Part shown: positions 3,773-60,707 of the stretch, one piece after another
Layout: every line of letters starts with the position of its first letter
Position numbering within the stretch: position 1 is the stretch's first letter
NCBI GenBank assembly: GCA_027483535.1
Contig: JAIXUN010000002.1
Coordinates: 248,001-312,000, forward strand
Direction: 5' to 3'
DNA from: a bacterium
GTDB lineage: Bacteria > Armatimonadota > Fimbriimonadia > Fimbriimonadales > Fimbriimonadaceae
Length of the DNA stretch: 64,000 nt
Translations under genes and position numbers: made by a program
The notes under the pieces: generated by a model
Databases searched by the model: none
What the model was told of the DNA's origin: nothing
The model's input: only the letters and a program-made list of their open reading frames with translations

Positions 3773-5239
3773 TTACAGCAGTTGAGGCGTGTGCTGAACG
3801 TCTGCAAACTCTCTTTCCACGGCATACGCCGCTGCGAGCAACGCTTCGTCCGCCATCGGGGCGCCCATGAGCTGAAGTCCAACCGGGAGACCGTCGCTGT
3901 AGCCCACGTTGAGCGAGATCGCAGGTGCGCCGATCATGTTCGCCGGGATGGTGCAGTAGTCGAGCAGCTTCATCGCCAAGGGGTCGGCATCAAACTCGCC
4001 GAGCTTGAACGCCGTGACCGGGCTTGTCGGCGAAACGACGAAATCGAACTCTTGGAAGGTCTGCAAGAACTTCTCGCGCATGTGCGCTCGAACTTGTTGC
4101 GCCTTGGTGTAGAAGGCGTCGTAGTAGCCCGCGCTGAGCGCGTAGGTACCGATCATGATCCGAGCCTTCACCTCGTGACCAAAGCCCTCGCCCCGAGTCT
4201 TCTCGACCAGGCCGATGTGCCCTTTCGACTCTTGTCGAGCGCCGTAGCGAATCCCATCGAAGCGGGCAAGGTTGGAACTGGCCTCAGCCGGAGCGATGAT
4301 GTAGTAAGTCGTGACTCCGTACTTGATCTCCTCGATGGAGACCTCGGTAACGGTTGCCCCGGCGGCTCGCAATCTATCGAGCGCGTCTTGAATCAACGCT
4401 GCTACTTTGGGATCGCCGGAATCGCCGAACATCTCCACCGGGAGCGCCAGTTTCATCCCCTTGAGACTGCCTTCCTTTAGGCCGGAAAGATCGATTCCGG
4501 GCGACTGAATGGACGTCGAATCCATTGCGTCATGACCGGTGGTGGCGGCGGCTAAGATCGCGGCGTCTTCCACGTTCTTTCCGAACGGCCCGATCTGGTC
4601 CAAGCTGGAACCGAATGCGATGAGACCATAGCGACTGCATCGGCCGTAAGTGGGCTTGAACCCAACGATGCCGCAAAGAGAGGCCGGAAGTCGAATGGAA
4701 CCGCCCGTGTCGGACCCAAGGGAGAGCGGAGCCAAGTTGCCTGCTACCGCCGCCGCCGAGCCGCCCGAAGAACCGCCTGGGGTACGAGTGGTATCCCACG
4801 GGTTTCGAGTGAGTTTGTACGCGGAGGTTTCGGTCGAGCTACCCATCGCGAACTCGTCCAGGTTGGTTTTTCCGAGGATCACCGCGCCCTGAGCCTTGAG
4901 CATGGACACCACCGTTGCATCGAACGGGGGAACGTATCCCTTTAGAATCTTGGAAGCACAGGTGGTCTCGATCCCGGTGGTGGAGATGTTGTCTTTGATC
5001 GCGACCGGAACACCCGTGAGCGGACCTGCATCGCCAGAGTCCAGCAAGCTTTGAGCCTTTTCTGCTTCGGCGATCGCCTTTTCACGATCAACCGCAAGGA
5101 ATGCCCCATAAGTGGGATCGACCGAGTCGATTCGGTCGAGGAAAGCGGTGGTGACCTCTACCGCCGAAAGCTCTTTCGCCTTGAGTTTTGCACTCAGATC
5201 GGCGGCGGAAAGGGAGGTGATCGTTTCTTGGTTGCTCAT
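3773..5239 (-). CDS. gatA: Aspartyl/glutamyl-tRNA(Asn/Gln) amidotransferase subunit A
   Basis: GatA (488 residues) is the glutamine-hydrolysing amidase of the GatCAB complex, which converts misacylated Glu-tRNA(Gln) or Asp-tRNA(Asn) to the correct aminoacyl-tRNA. The Ser-cisSer-Lys machinery is visible: VPVAIKDNIS carries the lysine, and GGSSGGSAAAVAG with the later SDTGGSIRLPAS carries the two serines. Length is that of the family. It follows gatC by only six bases. GatB is not in the window, so the third subunit must be encoded elsewhere. Confidence 0.97.
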   Translation of the reverse strand: MSNQETITSLSAADLSAKLKAKELSAVEVTTAFLDRIDSVDPTYGAFLAVDREKAIAEAEKAQSLLDSGDAGPLTGVPVAIKDNISTTGIETTCASKILKGYVPPFDATVVSMLKAQGAVILGKTNLDEFAMGSSTETSAYKLTRNPWDTTRTPGGSSGGSAAAVAGNLAPLSLGSDTGGSIRLPASLCGIVGFKPTYGRCSRYGLIAFGSSLDQIGPFGKNVEDAAILAAATTGHDAMDSTSIQSPGIDLSGLKEGSLKGMKLALPVEMFGDSGDPKVAALIQDALDRLRAAGATVTEVSIEEIKYGVTTYYIIAPAEASSNLARFDGIRYGARQESKGHIGLVEKTRGEGFGHEVKARIMIGTYALSAGYYDAFYTKAQQVRAHMREKFLQTFQEFDFVVSPTSPVTAFKLGEFDADPLAMKLLDYCTIPANMIGAPAISLNVGYSDGLPVGLQLMGAPMADEALLAAAYAVEREFADVQHTPQLL

Positions 5240-13970: not shown

Positions 13971-14333
13971 AGGCACCTTGCCCCCAAGTGAGGAGGGCGG
14001 ACCCACGACAGAGGTGGGTCGAAAAGGGTTTGGGCACCAGACGAGTAGATGACCTCAATGCGGCAAGGGCCGGGAGGTCGGATGCGAGAGGAATCGTCGG
14101 TCGGTGCGGAGCGAGATCCCTTTTCAGCGTTTGAGCAAGGTCATATCAGTCCAAAGAAGATACCCAATGTTGCTCGAAGTTGGTTCCCATGGGACCATTG
14201 GCTCACCCGATCGCGGCTGCGTTGACGCCCATCGCATAAATCCGAACTTCAAGTAGCGGGAGAGAAAATCCCCTCGACCCTTCCCTTTTTCAGGAAGGAA
14301 AGAGCGTGACCGAAAGACCGCCGCATCCCAAGT

Positions 14334-14384
14334 GCCCTCTCACCTCTGGGGGAGAGGGTGGCCGAAGGCCGGGTGAGGGGTCCG
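14334..14384. repeat. Imperfect inverted repeat of the CTCTC-GGGGGAGAG type
   Basis: The segment combines CCCTCTCACC, TCTGGGGGAGAGGGTGG and a second GGCCGAAGGCC stem before GGGTGAGGGG. Similar dispersed REP-like units occur in many bacterial genomes. No coding content. Confidence 0.6.
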
Positions 14385-14484
14385 ATCAAACCATTGCGAT
14401 CCAATTCTTGTAAAGATCCGACCAGCTAAATTCCCCTTCCCGATTAATGGGGGAGGGGAATGTGGTTTGTCACCTCTTTAATAC

Positions 14485-14520
14485 AGGTCCGGAGGACCGG
14501 CAAGAGTGTTAGCCCAGACC
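14485..14520 (+). repeat. Dispersed repeat, form 1, copy a
   Basis: A 36-base unit beginning AGGTCCGGAGGACCGGCAAG and ending TTAGCCCAGACC. The first part is a palindrome (GGTCCGGAGGACC). Copy b at 14947 differs by one base. Confidence 0.85.
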
Positions 14521-14544
14521 TCTTGTAGCGAGCCGATGGACCAA

Positions 14545-14585
14545 ATTCCCCTCTATGGAGGGGTGCCCCAGGGGGGCGGGGTGGT
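14545..14585 (+). repeat. Repeat with CCCCTCTATGGAGGGG palindrome, copy a
   Basis: ATTCCCCTCTATGGAGGG followed by GCGGGGTGGT. A second copy with the same order lies at 15193-15220, a few bases shorter between the two parts. Confidence 0.75.
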
Positions 14586-14751
14586 CTCCGGAGATCGTGT
14601 TCTCCATAGGCCTGGCACCCGAATTGCCATCAAAAAACGAGTGTCGGTTGAAACTGGCGACCACCCCGTTCCCGATTTATCGGGACCACCCATCCAGTAC
14701 CTGCCCCAATTCTTCGGGGAGGGGAATCTCGGTTGGTCAGCGTTGAAAAAC

Positions 14752-14779
14752 GGGTCCGGCAGGACCGACCAGATACTCC
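14752..14779 (+). repeat. Dispersed repeat, form 2, copy a
   Basis: GGGTCCGGCAGGACCGACCA followed by GATACTCC. It shares the GTCCGG-AGGACCG head with form 1 but has a different tail. Copy b is at 15017. Confidence 0.8.
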
Positions 14780-14853
14780 CTAGGAACCAATGAATAGAGG
14801 CGACCAGAGTAAGGCGGCGGAGCCGTGTAGTTGCCCTTTTTCTCCCCTCCGAT

Positions 14854-14880
14854 GCCCGTCCGGATTGATCGGGGACGGGC
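14854..14880. repeat. Palindromic repeat
   Basis: GCCCGTCC (14854-14861) and GGACGGGC (14873-14880) are exact reverse complements around an 11-base centre containing GATCGG. A related palindrome, TCCCGATTTATCGGGA, lies at about 14670. Confidence 0.75.
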
Positions 14881-14946
14881 CTCTTCGCACCCCTATGCGC
14901 TCCACTTTCACTTAAATCTCCTGGCTCGCCTAGATCTCCTTCCCGT

Positions 14947-14982
14947 AGGTCCGGAGGACCGGCAAGACTGTTAGCCCAGACC
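14947..14982 (+). repeat. Dispersed repeat, form 1, copy b
   Basis: Same 36-base unit as 14485-14520 with a single change (GACTGTT for GAGTGTT). It is followed by CTAGGTCTGGGT, which can pair with the CCAGACC end of the repeat. Confidence 0.85.
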
Positions 14983-15016
14983 GCTAGGTCTGGGTAGGGC
15001 CGTCGGAAAAGCCCAA

Positions 15017-15043
15017 AGGTCCGGAGGACCGACCAGATACTCC
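15017..15043 (+). repeat. Dispersed repeat, form 2, copy b
   Basis: AGGTCCGGAGGACCGACCAG followed by ATACTCC, which joins the form 1 head to the form 2 tail. Confidence 0.85.
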
Positions 15044-15114
15044 GGGGATATCCATTTATGAGACGCGATTGCCAGGGCTCCGCCCTTCTGGGTTTTTGGG
15101 GGCTGACTCCTTTT

Positions 15115-15134
15115 CCCAGGGTTGAAACCCTGGG
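15115..15134. repeat. Palindrome CCCAGGGTT-GAAACCCTGGG
   Basis: A near-perfect palindrome followed by a GGGGCTCCGCCCC hairpin (about 15148-15161). A related GGGCTCCGCCC stands just upstream near 15074. The two-part element resembles dispersed non-coding repeats seen in Planctomycetes-like genomes. Confidence 0.7.
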
Positions 15135-15192
15135 CTGCGATGCTTGCCGGGGCTCCGCCCCTTTGCGGAGTCTGTGGCGGGATTCCAGACTC

Positions 15193-15220
15193 ATTCCCCT
15201 CTATGGAGGGACGGGGTGGT
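15193..15220 (+). repeat. Repeat with CCCCTCTATGGAGGG palindrome, copy b
   Basis: Second copy of the 14545 unit: ATTCCCCTCTATGGAGGG then ACGGGGTGGT. Confidence 0.75.
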
Positions 15221-15365
15221 TTTCAAAAACATATTTAGCCCGAAGGTTTTGCCCCTCACATACCCATCTCGGGGAGACCTCTCCGCCAAACCGCGCTCTC
15301 GTTACCATTCCGTTCTACCGACCAACGGACCTGAAAAACACCGCTCCCGGTATTCTTGCACGCAT

Positions 15366-16325
15366 ATGTCGACTCGAAAGATCGCCGCGATTTTCCCCGG
15401 ACAGGGCTCCCAAACGCCCGGCATGGGCAAAGACCTTTACGATTCCCACCCGGCGGCGCAGGCCGTTTTTGGAATGGTGCAGTCCGCAACCGGAATCGAC
15501 ATCGCCAAGCTCTGTTTCGAGGCCGATTCCGCCACGCTCACCCTCACCCAGAACGCCCAGTTGGCTCTTTACGCCACCTCGGTAGCCGCATACGAATGCC
15601 TACGATCCGCGGGCGTGGAGGCGGAAGTCTTCGCCGGACACAGCGTGGGCGAATACGCCGCCCTTGCCTGCGCGGGATGGGTTTCCATTGAAGAAGGCGC
15701 CAAGCTGGTGCAAACCCGAGGCAACCTCATGGCGGCGGTGGGCGAAATGAAAGACGCCAACGGCAACCCGGTGGTCGGCGGAATGGCGGCGGTTCTGGGC
15801 CTGGAGCGAGACGCGATTCAGGCGGTTCTCGATACGGTGGACGGCGTGGTGGTGATCGCCAACGATAACTGCCCGGGTCAGTTGGTGATCAGTGGCGAGA
15901 AGAGCGCGGTCGAAGCAGCCGCTCCCAAGCTCACCGAAGCCGGAGCCAAGCGAGTGCTGCCGCTCAACGTGAGCGGCGCCTTCCACTCCCCGCTCATGGA
16001 AACCCCCGCCAAAGAGATGCGCTCCGCTCTAGACGCCGCCTCTTGGTCGGACGGCAAAACGGTTTACGCCAACGTCACCGCGTCGGCGGTGAAGGCGGGC
16101 GAAAAGGGATCGTGGCCGCAGTTGCTAGAAGACCAACTCCGCTCCCCCGTTCGATGGACGGAATCGGTGCAGGCGATGTTGGCAGATGGCTTCACCGACT
16201 TCGTGGAGTGCGGCGCGGGTCAGGTGCTGGTCGGCCTGCTAAAGCGGATCGATCGCGAAGCGCACGGGCACTCGGTCATCGACGCCGCATCGCTGGATGT
16301 GACGGTCGGTGTGGTTAAGGGCTAG
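15366..16325 (+). CDS. fabD: Malonyl-CoA:ACP transacylase
   Basis: FabD (319 residues) moves malonyl groups from CoA to acyl carrier protein at the start of fatty-acid synthesis. The start at 15366 gives the standard N-terminus, with FPGQGSQTPGMGKDLY carrying the conserved glutamine of the oxyanion region. The nucleophile elbow GHSVGEYAAL holds the catalytic serine, and GAFHSPLM the catalytic histidine. The frame is open further upstream into the repeat region, but those residues have no family support. fabG, acpP and fabF follow on the same strand, separated by inserted genes. The last 36 codons have a second, diverged copy at 16974-17138. Confidence 0.96.
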   Translation: MSTRKIAAIFPGQGSQTPGMGKDLYDSHPAAQAVFGMVQSATGIDIAKLCFEADSATLTLTQNAQLALYATSVAAYECLRSAGVEAEVFAGHSVGEYAALACAGWVSIEEGAKLVQTRGNLMAAVGEMKDANGNPVVGGMAAVLGLERDAIQAVLDTVDGVVVIANDNCPGQLVISGEKSAVEAAAPKLTEAGAKRVLPLNVSGAFHSPLMETPAKEMRSALDAASWSDGKTVYANVTASAVKAGEKGSWPQLLEDQLRSPVRWTESVQAMLADGFTDFVECGAGQVLVGLLKRIDREAHGHSVIDAASLDVTVGVVKG

Positions 16326-16385
16326 TTTCTGTCTTGGATCACCGACGAGGGTCCGGCTCCCGATCAGAGCAAGTAGGCTACGCAC

Positions 16386-16940
16386 GTGGATCTAACCCGC
16401 CAGGAAACGATCGAGATTGCATCACAAGTGTTGATGCTTTTGAAAGAGCTTGGTTTTGAATCCAAGTTGGACGAAGGGCAGATCGAAAGCAAGGAATTCT
16501 CGGGGTGGGTGACGCCTATGATCCTCGAGAATGCTCTTCAACCCTCGGTGAACTACGGCGTTGGTCATCAACAATTTCAGGTGGCTCGAATGTGTTGTAT
16601 CGTCATCGCTCTCTATCCAACCGACCACGCCATCGATGAGTCGTTGTTGCTGCTCGACTCATTTGAGAAGGATTCGATTCACAGGATCATTTCTCAATCT
16701 TTTCTCAGATCGTTGAGCAAAGGTCAATCCTTGAAAGAGGCTTTGGCCTACCAGGGCAACCGCCCGCTGGTCCTTCGTTGCTTAGCTGAGGTTTGGCATA
16801 TCGCTACCGGTAAGGCGATGAAGTCGTTGCCTGACTCGCGTCATGTACGCCCGGGTTTCAGGACTCTCTTGAACACTAGCTTGCAGGAGCGATTAGTTCA
16901 AATTCGATTAGTAGAGATTGAGAGGGCAACCGGAGAGTGA
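16386..16940 (+). CDS. Hypothetical protein in the fabD-fabG insertion
   Basis: A soluble protein of 184 residues, mostly helical in appearance, with no signal peptide and no recognised family. The GTG start follows TAGGCT by exactly six bases, as expected for a leaderless transcript. It lies between fabD and a duplicated fabD tail, so it probably arrived together with that copy. Base composition is richer in A+T than fabD. Confidence 0.6.
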   Translation: MDLTRQETIEIASQVLMLLKELGFESKLDEGQIESKEFSGWVTPMILENALQPSVNYGVGHQQFQVARMCCIVIALYPTDHAIDESLLLLDSFEKDSIHRIISQSFLRSLSKGQSLKEALAYQGNRPLVLRCLAEVWHIATGKAMKSLPDSRHVRPGFRTLLNTSLQERLVQIRLVEIERATGE

Positions 16941-16973
16941 GCCGATCGGGCGATCTCACAAAATGCATTCGCC

Positions 16974-17138
16974 ATGACAGACTTCGTTGAGTGCGGCGCG
17001 GGTCAGGTGCTGGTCGGCCTGGTGAAGCGAATCGATCGAGAAGCGCACGGGCACTCGGTCATCGATGCCGCTTTGCTCGTGGTCGAAAGAATTTTTGGTA
17101 AAGCACCCGGAACCCATGGTGGAGCTACTGGGTTTTGA
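16974..17138 (+). pseudogene. Second, truncated copy of the fabD 3' end
   Basis: From 16980 the sequence repeats the fabD tail: DFVECGAGQVLVGLVKRIDR and the following EAHGHSVIDAA match residues encoded at about 16198-16290. Most differences from fabD are third-base changes (for example GTG/GTT, CGG/CGA, CGC/CGA, GAC/GAT), with one Leu-to-Val change, then the match ends after about 35 codons. The frame remains open from an ATG at 16974 to a TGA at 17138 with an unrelated C-terminal end. The silent-change pattern suggests that the copy came from the fabD of a relative through recombination, rather than from recent local duplication and decay. Confidence 0.8.
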
Positions 17139-17172
17139 TTCAAGTTAGGCACTGACAAGGAATCGTTGAAAA

Positions 17173-17850
17173 ATGGGTCGTTTTGTTCGGGCAGCAATTG
17201 TTCGTGTAGGCGTTCAAGAGGATCGTCTGAATGAGTTAATCGAGATCCTTATCGAACGAAAAGCCTACGAGACCCAGGAATCGGCTCGAAAATATCTTGA
17301 AGAAGTTGGGTCCTGGCATTCTGCCGAATCGGCGGCGATTATGAGTGATTTGATCACCCCAGAAGATTGCTTGAAAAGGCCTTTTTGGGGATGTATTTGG
17401 GAGGCGTGTACGTATCAGGAGAAGGAGTTTTTGGGGGACCAGTTCCCTTACCACAACAAACCCCTGCGAGTACCCTTCTGGATTGCGTCGGTCTTTGCTC
17501 AACTAGACGGTGGGCAGCTACCGACTTACGGTCAACTGCAACTTTTCCACGATGCGCATAGCCAGGTCGATGATGATACGGCGACCCCATTGATGGACTC
17601 TCCTTCGAAAGGCTGTTCGTCCACCAACCTCGACTGTGGGGAATGGACGATGACACCCCTTGTGATGTGGCCCACTCACAGCCGGCTACACCATTCCGAG
17701 GTTGCCATTTTCCCGTGCCACGATTTGCTTACCGTGCAACTTGAGCCAGACGAGGGAAGAACGGCGAGGTACCAAGACGGTGAAGAGGGACGGGAAGCTG
17801 ACTTATCCGACACTTTCTATTTTCGCTGCTCTGAAAATACGTTTGAATAA
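17173..17850 (+). CDS. Hypothetical protein in the fabD-fabG insertion
   Basis: A soluble 225-residue product without a recognised family. The N-terminal 60 residues are helical and charged (LNELIEILIERKAYETQESA); the middle contains aromatic-rich segments such as KRPFWGCIWEACTYQEKEF. It has no secretion signal. AAGGAATCG upstream of the ATG may serve as ribosome-binding site. The context of orphan genes within a broken operon suggests horizontal origin. Confidence 0.55.
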   Translation: MGRFVRAAIVRVGVQEDRLNELIEILIERKAYETQESARKYLEEVGSWHSAESAAIMSDLITPEDCLKRPFWGCIWEACTYQEKEFLGDQFPYHNKPLRVPFWIASVFAQLDGGQLPTYGQLQLFHDAHSQVDDDTATPLMDSPSKGCSSTNLDCGEWTMTPLVMWPTHSRLHHSEVAIFPCHDLLTVQLEPDEGRTARYQDGEEGREADLSDTFYFRCSENTFE

Positions 17851-17872
17851 GTTACTTTGCTAACAAATCTGT

Positions 17873-17929
17873 TGTACGATGTTCATGGAACCAGAGCGTC
17901 AAGGATCACGCCCAGAGAATGCCGCCTGA
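17873..17929 (+). promoter_or_regulatory. TGTACGAT box with a 14-codon open frame
   Basis: TGTACGATGTTCATGGAACC starts at 17873 and matches the box at 8012 in 17 of 20 positions. TACGAT may be a -10 element; an ATG four bases later (17885) opens a frame of 14 codons ending at 17929. A pair of overlapping membrane-protein genes lies downstream, as at the first site. Confidence 0.4.
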
Positions 17930-18073
17930 GTACCGGGCCGCGGATCGTTTTTTTCAGACCAGGGTATCTCTGCACTTCTCTTTTCAGCCGATGAAGACAC
18001 GCCGTTTGAAGATCGATGTTGCTGCTTGTTCGACCGTTTTTGGTTATGGCCGTTTGAGTGTAGTCAGAAACTA

Positions 18074-18586
18074 ATGTTTGCTCGGGTTCTGGAGATGATC
18101 GGCGATTTCCTAGGTGCTTTCGCTTGCATGGCATGCGTTTTGTTACTTTGCCAAATCTCAAGCAAAAAGTATCGCACCAATCTCGAAAGGGTTACGGCAT
18201 GTACCTTTCCAGCTTTCCGGTGGCGATATCAAAAGGTAGTCGTTAAGCCTGACTTTAATCTCGGAAGGTTCTGGCGACATTGTGATGATCTCGCGACCGA
18301 AGCCAGAGTCGATTCTAATATTGGCTTTGCCGACACGGGTGACGAGCTGAAATTCAATCTGAAGCTAACCGTCAAGAACGGATTTCTCTACATACGACCG
18401 AAGAGAATTATTATCTTGCACCCAGGTTTGTTTGTGCTGATGGGGACCCTTGCTGTGCGACCAGTGATTGGCGCGGTTTGGGCACTAGGATATCTCCTCA
18501 TCTTTACCTTTGACTTTGATGGCGAAGCCAGCGCTGTCAGGGTTCTTGCTGAGAAATACTCGCGTGGAACGGTTCAATCAATTTGA
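18074..18586 (+). CDS. Small hypothetical membrane protein, first of an overlapping pair
   Basis: About 170 residues from the ATG at 18074; a TTG at 18026 would add 16. A hydrophobic segment near the N-terminus (IGDFLGAFACMACVLLLCQI) is followed by a soluble region and a hydrophobic C-terminal part (LFVLMGTLAVRPVIGAVWAL). No family was recognised. The stop TGA overlaps the TTG start of the next gene. Low G+C and the lack of relatives among nearby genes fit acquired DNA. Confidence 0.55.
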   Translation: MFARVLEMIGDFLGAFACMACVLLLCQISSKKYRTNLERVTACTFPAFRWRYQKVVVKPDFNLGRFWRHCDDLATEARVDSNIGFADTGDELKFNLKLTVKNGFLYIRPKRIIILHPGLFVLMGTLAVRPVIGAVWALGYLLIFTFDFDGEASAVRVLAEKYSRGTVQSI

Positions 18587-19065
18587 CAGAAGAGCAAAAA
18601 AGTGAGGGTTTTGAGCGACCCCGAGAGTTATCGATGAAAATGCGAAAGCGCAAGACGACTTGGTTTGCGTTGATGGCATCATCGATAATCCTAATGACTT
18701 GTCTTAATGAGCAAAGGGATGTTCACTCACGTCTTTACTCGAATCTTCACAGCCTTGTGGGCCTCTTTATCTTCCAGTTGGTCCTAAGCATAAGCGTGGT
18801 TGCGGTTAAAGAGTTTCGAAGCGTGCCCAGAATTCTTTTCCTATCTTCTGCCGGAATCTTAACTCTTCTTGCGTTGATTCCTTCGAGCGGAACAATTCCG
18901 GTAGGAGTGAAGGCGATTTGTTGCTTTATCGTGATCGCTGAACTAGGCTTCGTTTGGGACCGGTGGTTTATAGGTTTTGAGGCGATGTTGCAGAAGTTTC
19001 TATCACCTAGCAAAGTCGTAAATGATCGGTTGTCGAACTCTGACGATCGGGCGGGAATGGACTAA
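18583..19065 (+). CDS. Small hypothetical membrane protein, second of an overlapping pair
   Basis: This product of 160 residues starts at TTG 18583, overlapping the previous stop, or at the ATG near 18634. Four hydrophobic segments are visible, among them TWFALMASSIILMTCL, LVGLFIFQLVLSISVVAV and ILFLSSAGILTLLALI. No recognised family. It closes the accessory insertion; the fabG start lies about 120 bases downstream. Confidence 0.55.
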   Translation: MTEEQKSEGFERPRELSMKMRKRKTTWFALMASSIILMTCLNEQRDVHSRLYSNLHSLVGLFIFQLVLSISVVAVKEFRSVPRILFLSSAGILTLLALIPSSGTIPVGVKAICCFIVIAELGFVWDRWFIGFEAMLQKFLSPSKVVNDRLSNSDDRAGMD

Positions 19066-19186
19066 CCTCCGAACTTTAGAGGTCCATTCGAACGAGCAAC
19101 GAAAGGGCATGCCGTGCAGATCACTCTCACCCGACTCGGTATCCTGATCCACATCGAATCCAATGGGTTTGGAGAAGCGAAGACAG

Positions 19187-19927
19187 ATGAGCGGAATGCG
19201 TTTTCAAGATCAAGTGGTTGTTGTCACCGGAGCCAGTAGAGGCATCGGCAAGTCCATCGCCGAGGCATTCGCCGCCGAGGGCGCGAAAGTAGCTTGCGTG
19301 GCAACCACGGAAGCCGGGGCTAAGGCAACCGCCGACGCCATCGGAAACGGCGCCATCGGCCTCGCGTGCGACGTCAGCGACTCCGCCGCCGTCGATTCCA
19401 TGATCGAGGCCGTTCTAGAGCAGCTCGGAACCCCGTCGGTCATCGTGAACAACGCGGGCATCACCCGAGACACCTTGATGCTGCGCATGAAGGAAGAAGA
19501 CTGGGACCGCGTGATGGCGGTGAACCTGAAAGGCGCGTTCCTGGTGACCAAAGCGGCCAGCAAGAGCATGATGAAGGCTCGCTACGGTCGAATCGTGAAC
19601 ATCACCAGTGTCATCGGACTGCACGGTCAAGCCGGACAAGCCAACTACGCCGCTTCCAAGGCCGGGCTCATCGGACTCACGCTCACCACGGCCAAGGAGT
19701 ACGGTAGCCGAGGAATCACCTGCAACGCCATCGCCCCGGGGTTCATCGAAAGCGACATGACCGAGAATCTGCCCGAGGACTTTAAGAACGACGTGGTGAG
19801 CCGAGCGCCTGCGGGTCGACTCGGAACGCCGAAAGACATCGCGGCGGCAGTGCTGTTCATCGCCTCGCCAGATGCGGCGTACATCACGGGTCAAACGCTC
19901 ACCGTAGACGGCGGTCTCTTCCTCTAA
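19187..19927 (+). CDS. fabG: 3-oxoacyl-ACP reductase
   Basis: A short-chain dehydrogenase of 246 residues that reduces 3-oxoacyl-ACP with NADPH. The cofactor loop VVVTGASRGIGKSIAEAF, the NNAGITRDTLMLRM segment and the catalytic YAASKAGLIGL (Tyr and Lys) are all typical of FabG, and the C-terminal ITGQTLTVDGGLFL closes the family pattern. I chose the ATG at 19187, with GGAG 12 bases upstream; upstream and downstream ATGs in frame are possible. It would normally follow fabD directly; here about 2.9 kb of accessory DNA lies between them. Confidence 0.95.
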   Translation: MSGMRFQDQVVVVTGASRGIGKSIAEAFAAEGAKVACVATTEAGAKATADAIGNGAIGLACDVSDSAAVDSMIEAVLEQLGTPSVIVNNAGITRDTLMLRMKEEDWDRVMAVNLKGAFLVTKAASKSMMKARYGRIVNITSVIGLHGQAGQANYAASKAGLIGLTLTTAKEYGSRGITCNAIAPGFIESDMTENLPEDFKNDVVSRAPAGRLGTPKDIAAAVLFIASPDAAYITGQTLTVDGGLFL

Positions 19928-22777: not shown

Positions 22778-22833
22778 CGTCCAAAGGTTATGCAGGTCGG
22801 TCGGGCAGACTGACTGAAGTTTCTTTGCCGCTA

Positions 22834-23781
22834 ATGGATGCGCCCATCTTGCCTGAAGAACTGAAAGGTGCCGTCGTCGCCGAATGGGTCGATCACTTTC
22901 TGGCGCATTTGGCTCCAAGAAGATCCGCCGCGACGGTTCGTGCCTACGGGGCCGACCTTAGGCAGTTGGTGGAAGATCTGGGCGACCATCGAGCGTTTAC
23001 TTCTGATTCTCTCAAGCGCTATCTGCGCGCCAACGCTTCTACGCCGGTGACTCGTGCCCGCAAACTCAGCACCCTTCGCACCTTCGCGAAGTACCTGAAG
23101 TCTCAGGGAGTCCTCGCCTCAGACCCAACCGATCTTCTGGAAGCGCCTTTCCGGCGTCGCAACCTTCCAAAGGCGCTCAACACCGGGCAAGCGGGAGCTC
23201 TCTTGGATCAAGAAGATCAGGGTCGAACCCCCAAACGAGATCGGGCCCTGTTGGAGCTTCTCTATTCCGCCGGGTTACGTGCTGCGGAACTGGTGTCCAT
23301 CGACCTCGGCCGTCTCGACCTTGAGCAGATGTCGGTGGAGGTGATCGGTAAAGGGGACAAAGAGCGCCGGACCTACTTTGGCAAGACCTGCGCGTTCGCC
23401 CTGCAAGACTACATCGCCTCAGAGCGGGTCGCGACGTTGGAAGAGCAGAAGGGAGCCGTGCGTCGTGGTCAAGCGATTCCGCTCTTTACGAACTCGAAAG
23501 GCAAGCGGCTCACCACTCGAACCGTTCAAAACGTGGTGAAGAGATGGGCGCTTTCGGTGGGGCTGGATCCTTCCATCAGCCCGCACACGTTGAGGCATAG
23601 CTTCGCCACGCACTTGCTCGATGGTGGGGCCGACCTTAAGACCGTTCAGCAGCTACTGGGGCATACCAGCTTGGAAACCACGCAGATCTACACCCACGTG
23701 AGCATTCAGAAGCTTAAGGAAGCGGTTGAAAAGGCTCACCCGATGGGTGGGAACAAGTCTGGCGAGCCCAAGGAAGAATAA
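22834..23781 (+). CDS. xerC: Tyrosine recombinase of the XerC/XerD type
   Basis: A 315-residue tyrosine recombinase. The N-terminal core-binding (SAM-like) domain contains RSAATVRAYGADLRQLVEDL; the catalytic domain has YSAGLRAAELVSIDL with the first arginine, SPHTLRHSFATHLLDGG with the His-Arg pair, QLLGHTSLETTQIYTHV with the second histidine and the tyrosine nucleophile. Size and full-length match to chromosomal Xer proteins favour dimer resolution over phage integration; XerC and XerD cannot be separated by eye. Start at ATG 22834. Confidence 0.9.
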   Translation: MDAPILPEELKGAVVAEWVDHFLAHLAPRRSAATVRAYGADLRQLVEDLGDHRAFTSDSLKRYLRANASTPVTRARKLSTLRTFAKYLKSQGVLASDPTDLLEAPFRRRNLPKALNTGQAGALLDQEDQGRTPKRDRALLELLYSAGLRAAELVSIDLGRLDLEQMSVEVIGKGDKERRTYFGKTCAFALQDYIASERVATLEEQKGAVRRGQAIPLFTNSKGKRLTTRTVQNVVKRWALSVGLDPSISPHTLRHSFATHLLDGGADLKTVQQLLGHTSLETTQIYTHVSIQKLKEAVEKAHPMGGNKSGEPKEE

Positions 23782-60666: not shown

Positions 60667-60707
60667 AAAATGGGCTTCGCCGAATTCGGCGAAGCCCATT
60701 TTTCTTA
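60667..60707. terminator. Bidirectional terminator, long perfect palindrome
   Basis: AAAATGGGCTTCGCCGAATT pairs with the following AATTCGGCGAAGCCCATTTT (60667-60702), then TTCTT. It ends the fliS transcript and the convergent secreted-protein gene. Confidence 0.93.

Follow-up and report, generated by a model that had tools for sequence, protein, structure and literature searches.

Behind the intact fabD gene of this Armatimonadota genome lies a second, displaced copy of the fabD 3' end. The copy is real and marks an inner joint of a block of added genes; it is most likely a recombination scar, well preserved but of an ordinary kind. We favour, with somewhat better than even confidence, a reading in which the scar was left behind fabD by recombination with the DNA of a close relative that was homologous on one side only. 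The window, meaning the whole stretch of 64,000 nucleotides that was analysed (C1:248001-312000), belongs to a genome of 3.77 Mb in 4 contigs with a contamination of 0.05%, and its relevant features are collected in Table 1. The relatives of its fabD place the genome in Armatimonadota, close to Fimbriimonadaceae.

Table 1. Features of the fabD-fabG region, in positions of the window.
Feature	Position	Strand	Evidence
fabD, intact malonyl-CoA:ACP transacylase gene, 319 aa	15366..16325	+	TIGR00128 290 bits, above cut-off; PF00698
Repeated fabD segment, codons 277 to ~310	16194..16294	+	sequence comparison
Orphan ORF P0001, 184 aa, G+C 0.50, between fabD and second tail	16386..16940	+	
Second fabD tail, 5'-truncated remnant	16977..17077	+	91% identity to 16194-16294; most differences silent
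Predicted ATG..TGA frame, 54 codons: remnant plus 3' part without clear fabD homology	16974..17138	+	
Orphan ORF P0002, 225 aa, G+C 0.51	17173..17850	+	
Orphan ORF P0003, 170 aa, G+C 0.48	18074..18586	+	
Orphan ORF P0004, 160 aa, G+C 0.46	18583..19065	+	
Whole extra stretch fabD-fabG	16326..19162	.	adjacency in relatives; composition
fabG, 3-oxoacyl-ACP reductase gene	19163..19927	+	PF13561; 54-73% identity to fabD-adjacent fabG of relatives

The second tail aligns with the last part of fabD at 92 of 101 bases, without gaps and in the same frame (E 1e-30 in a local comparison). In a search of the whole genome it is the sole other match to this fabD segment (E 1.2e-34). An in-frame ATG stands directly 5' of the match, and the frame runs open to a stop that ends at 17138. 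The first-pass annotation had described a match of about 110 bases from 16974; the repeat itself stands, but its supported extent is 101 bases from 16977. In a codon comparison up to 17078 we observed 10 differences over 102 nt, eight of them at third, one at first and one at second codon positions, which bears out the earlier remark that the changes fall mostly on third positions. Seven codons changed silently (ACC>ACA, GTG>GTT, CGG>CGA, CGC>CGA, GAC>GAT, GCA>GCT and CTG>CTC). Two changed the amino acid: CTA>GTG (L>V), a residue that occurs in the functional FabD of several relatives, and TCG>TTG (S>L), right at the margin of the match. The compared 102 nt contain no stop and no indel, and by the Nei-Gojobori method the remnant and fabD differ with a dN of 0.027 and a dS of 0.37 (dN/dS about 0.07).

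The two edges of the homology differ in kind. At the 5' side it begins abruptly inside the conserved FabD core (TDFVEC), and at the 3' side it fades some 28 bases short of the local fabD stop, in the C-terminal region of FabD that varies among relatives too; the last codons of the remnant match no part of fabD. From this asymmetry we infer a true fabD 3' end, truncated on its 5' side and displaced downstream. No homology visible at the breakpoint explains the boundary of the remnant, and an Rfam search returned nothing at the repeat. We also considered whether the repeat continues past the fabD match into a second copy of the start of P0001; the candidate was a 20-base resemblance, CTTGGTTTTGAATCCAAGTT, with a shuffle P of ~0.02, and it was dropped. 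The remnant is most likely inactive now. In an unbroken 464 kb that comprises the window and its surroundings, we found no other case of a conserved gene whose 3' end has a short near-duplicate next to orphan genes; the remaining duplicate hits inspected there belonged to paralog families or other repeats, apart from one decayed redoxin copy.

Comparison with relatives places the remnant inside a larger addition. The fabD stop and the fabG start lie 2.84 kb apart here, but about 0-40 bp apart in most relatives. The G+C content of the insert, about 0.46-0.54, is below the 0.58-0.64 of the flanking genes, and its codon usage, that of P0001 included, falls outside the range spanned by the other genes of the window. 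Within the insert the remnant stands 3' of P0001 and 5' of P0002, and parts one orphan gene from three others. It is thus an inner joint and not, as the first-pass annotation had it, one end of the insertion, a description that holds only if P0001 alone is counted as the insertion. The fabD-fabG junction is itself not fixed in the genus, because eight relatives have other genes behind fabD and no strong fabG match in the stretch fetched downstream of it; their breaks share none of the window's genes. One relative (G004, C52) carries a fabG-matching gene next to fabD on the opposite strand and a second fabG-like gene beyond it (2114-2884 and 3788-4504 of the fetched stretch). Upstream, the gap between fabD and a divergent MFS gene holds ~1.36 kb of apparently non-coding DNA (14007-15365) where relatives have about 90-310 bp, so that extra DNA is present on both sides of fabD here. 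Short repeats occur within it, for example at 14485-14520 and 14947-14982, together with a match to the Rfam Acido-Lenti-1 RNA on the plus strand at 15115-15162 (36.8 bits against a gathering score of 37).

The four orphan genes have no family match in Pfam. P0001 has no PADLOC match and only insignificant matches in PHROGs and NCBIfam, and P0002 has no match in any of these three collections, where P0003 and P0004 likewise gave nothing convincing. No convincing relative of P0001 was found among 113 genomes of the order, P0002 was found in no other of 291 genomes of the phylum at E<=0.001, and searches of the order or phylum gave nothing convincing for P0003 and P0004. P0001 and P0002, the only two searched against plasmids and viral contigs, had no convincing match there. 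Structure predictions made for the same two proteins without relatives were too poor for use (mean pLDDT 48 and 37).

The silent bias bears on the origin of the second tail. We ran simulations of 10 differences, both without mutational bias and with a bias towards A+T, and recorded the probability that at most two differences fall outside third positions and that, at the same time, no more than two amino acids change. It was 0.0002-0.002 where only the fragment drifts, 0.009-0.03 where a local duplicate drifts while the real fabD stays under selection, and 0.3-0.8 where both copies are selected. The bias (8 of 10 at third positions) and these simulations therefore favour a source copy that was under selection, on ten differences only. 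The earlier statement that selection "must" have acted was too strong, given a probability of about 0.01-0.03 for so biased a pattern in a local duplicate, although the bias does argue in that direction. Caution is also advised by a plainly decayed redoxin-like copy in the same genome, in which 52 of 86 differences lie at third positions. The first-pass annotation had further reasoned that its view would fail if the fragment best matched the local fabD with equal silent and replacement rates; the best match is indeed the local gene, but equal rates are not seen. The source was probably a fabD allele that once worked in a close, unsampled lineage. A near relative is the probable source, in line with the related strain proposed earlier, because no other match comes near that of the local fabD, and the remaining fabD genes found are all much more distant (protein identity of about 62% or less). 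Since the fabD comparisons, with one genome per species sampled, found no donor or strain-level relative, the attribution to another lineage rests on the ten base differences.

These observations are accommodated by a model in which two close lineages would have borne different extra genes behind fabD. DNA of one lineage would have entered the other, with homologous recombination on one side only, which we consider plausible: a second, truncated copy of a flanking gene does adjoin added non-homologous DNA. The homologous side could lie within fabD or further upstream, or within fabG or further downstream. The other end may have been joined without homology, by homology-facilitated illegitimate recombination, or a circle may have integrated by a single crossover; both processes have been described (PMC3240628). 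The product would be additive, namely the intact fabD, P0001, the ~34 terminal codons of a fabD from the other lineage, now displaced, P0002-P0004 and fabG, with P0002-P0004 as the orphan genes of the lineage that supplied the displaced tail. Either the intact fabD or the remnant might be the newcomer. Because the last remnant codons match no fabD, it is unproven that the remnant and P0002 are continuous, as a fabD and its natural downstream region would be. A gene for a ComEC-type competence protein is present in the genome, so DNA uptake is possible and presumably took place. It is also conceivable, though we give this little credence, that the fabD 3' end is a recurrent landing site in the lineage, where orphan modules were stacked and each displaced the previous fabD tail, much as T6SS and Rhs immunity arrays are extended, except that a housekeeping gene would stand in front.

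Several known systems show parts of this anatomy. T6SS immunity arrays of V. cholerae and Rhs loci share with the fabD locus the order of conserved upstream gene, new gene, the replaced gene's shifted-back 3' end and older genes (PMC5361080), as well as the lack of an integrase, and the shifted-back 3' ends of the T6SS arrays have been explained by a model of homology-facilitated illegitimate recombination (PMC5361080). Unlike those loci, fabD is a housekeeping gene, the orphans have no known function, and no strain series is available here. In E. coli K-12, prophage e14 duplicated the 3' end of the housekeeping gene icd as a 165-bp repeat of 54 codons with 12 exchanges and two amino-acid changes (PMC11148124); there too the differences are mainly silent, the intact gene (icd) lies upstream and the displaced tail (icdC) downstream. 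However, the fabD locus has neither prophage nor integrase, and its copies are spaced by 783 bp with a single orphan ORF between them. Campbell integration of non-replicating DNA likewise leaves an intact and a truncated gene copy around the added DNA (PMC3240628), whereas no vector or plasmid genes lie between the fabD copies. The feature indicates no new mechanism; it is a small readable record of unrelated genes added between neighbouring core genes in Armatimonadota, in which the displaced tail exposes the joint between two additions.

Local duplication would account for the repeat without a donor: the end of the resident fabD would have been copied by tandem duplication or slippage, P0001 inserted later, and the copy left to drift while the real gene remained selected. 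The local fabD is by far the remnant's best match, the functional copy would supply part of the silent bias, and the redoxin-like copy shows that third-position differences can prevail despite indels and a stop. Yet the remnant has neither an indel nor a stop, and its ten differences are improbable under the duplicate-drift simulations, which leaves this origin rather unlikely. An assembly artefact, in which one contig combines the alleles of two strains that occurred together, can arise if the genome is a metagenome assembly, and the remnant does resemble the allele of another strain; the small number of contigs, the low contamination and the lack of further strain-like duplicates in the surrounding 464 kb make it improbable.

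The likeness to icd and e14 (PMC11148124) raises the prospect that the locus is what remains of a small site-specific element which used the fabD 3' end as its target and rebuilt it with a copy of its own, the second tail being the displaced original end, and an intact fabD end does lie on one side of the added DNA with a displaced tail on the other. Only P0001 lies between the tails, however, without an integrase gene, and neither Pfam nor PHROGs gave an integrase match in P0001-P0004. The nearest tyrosine recombinase (22825-23781; PF00589 match 23179-23703) is outside the insert and syntenic with fabD-fabG in two relatives (G004 and G010); it is probably a resident Xer. A mobile element finds no support in flanking repeats or in copies among relatives. 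A second tail was seen in none of the 130 other fabD neighbourhoods examined, a sample in which most relatives' neighbourhoods span only +/-1.5 kb, some overlap or are identical, and many come from other phyla. Such an element is accordingly improbable. A transposon or insertion sequence was rejected, as there are no terminal inverted repeats and no transposase match in the insert ORFs. That the predicted frame is a working small gene of 54 codons would fit its ATG start, its open frame and its neat placement between P0001 and P0002, but its product would be a piece of FabD without the active-site domain, promoters in the region do not exceed chance expectation, no ribosome-binding site is evident, and it is not conserved elsewhere; we regard it as very unlikely.

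The decayed redoxin-like copy, tentatively so named from its sequence, lies at C1:441972-442602, 3.35 kb upstream of the intact gene (445322-445954), with a 770-aa ORF between them. It is 85.6% identical to that gene, contains indels and a stop, and extends to the exact 3' end of the gene. Elsewhere in the window, a perfect 36-base inverted self-match at 60667-60702 forms a perfect palindrome.
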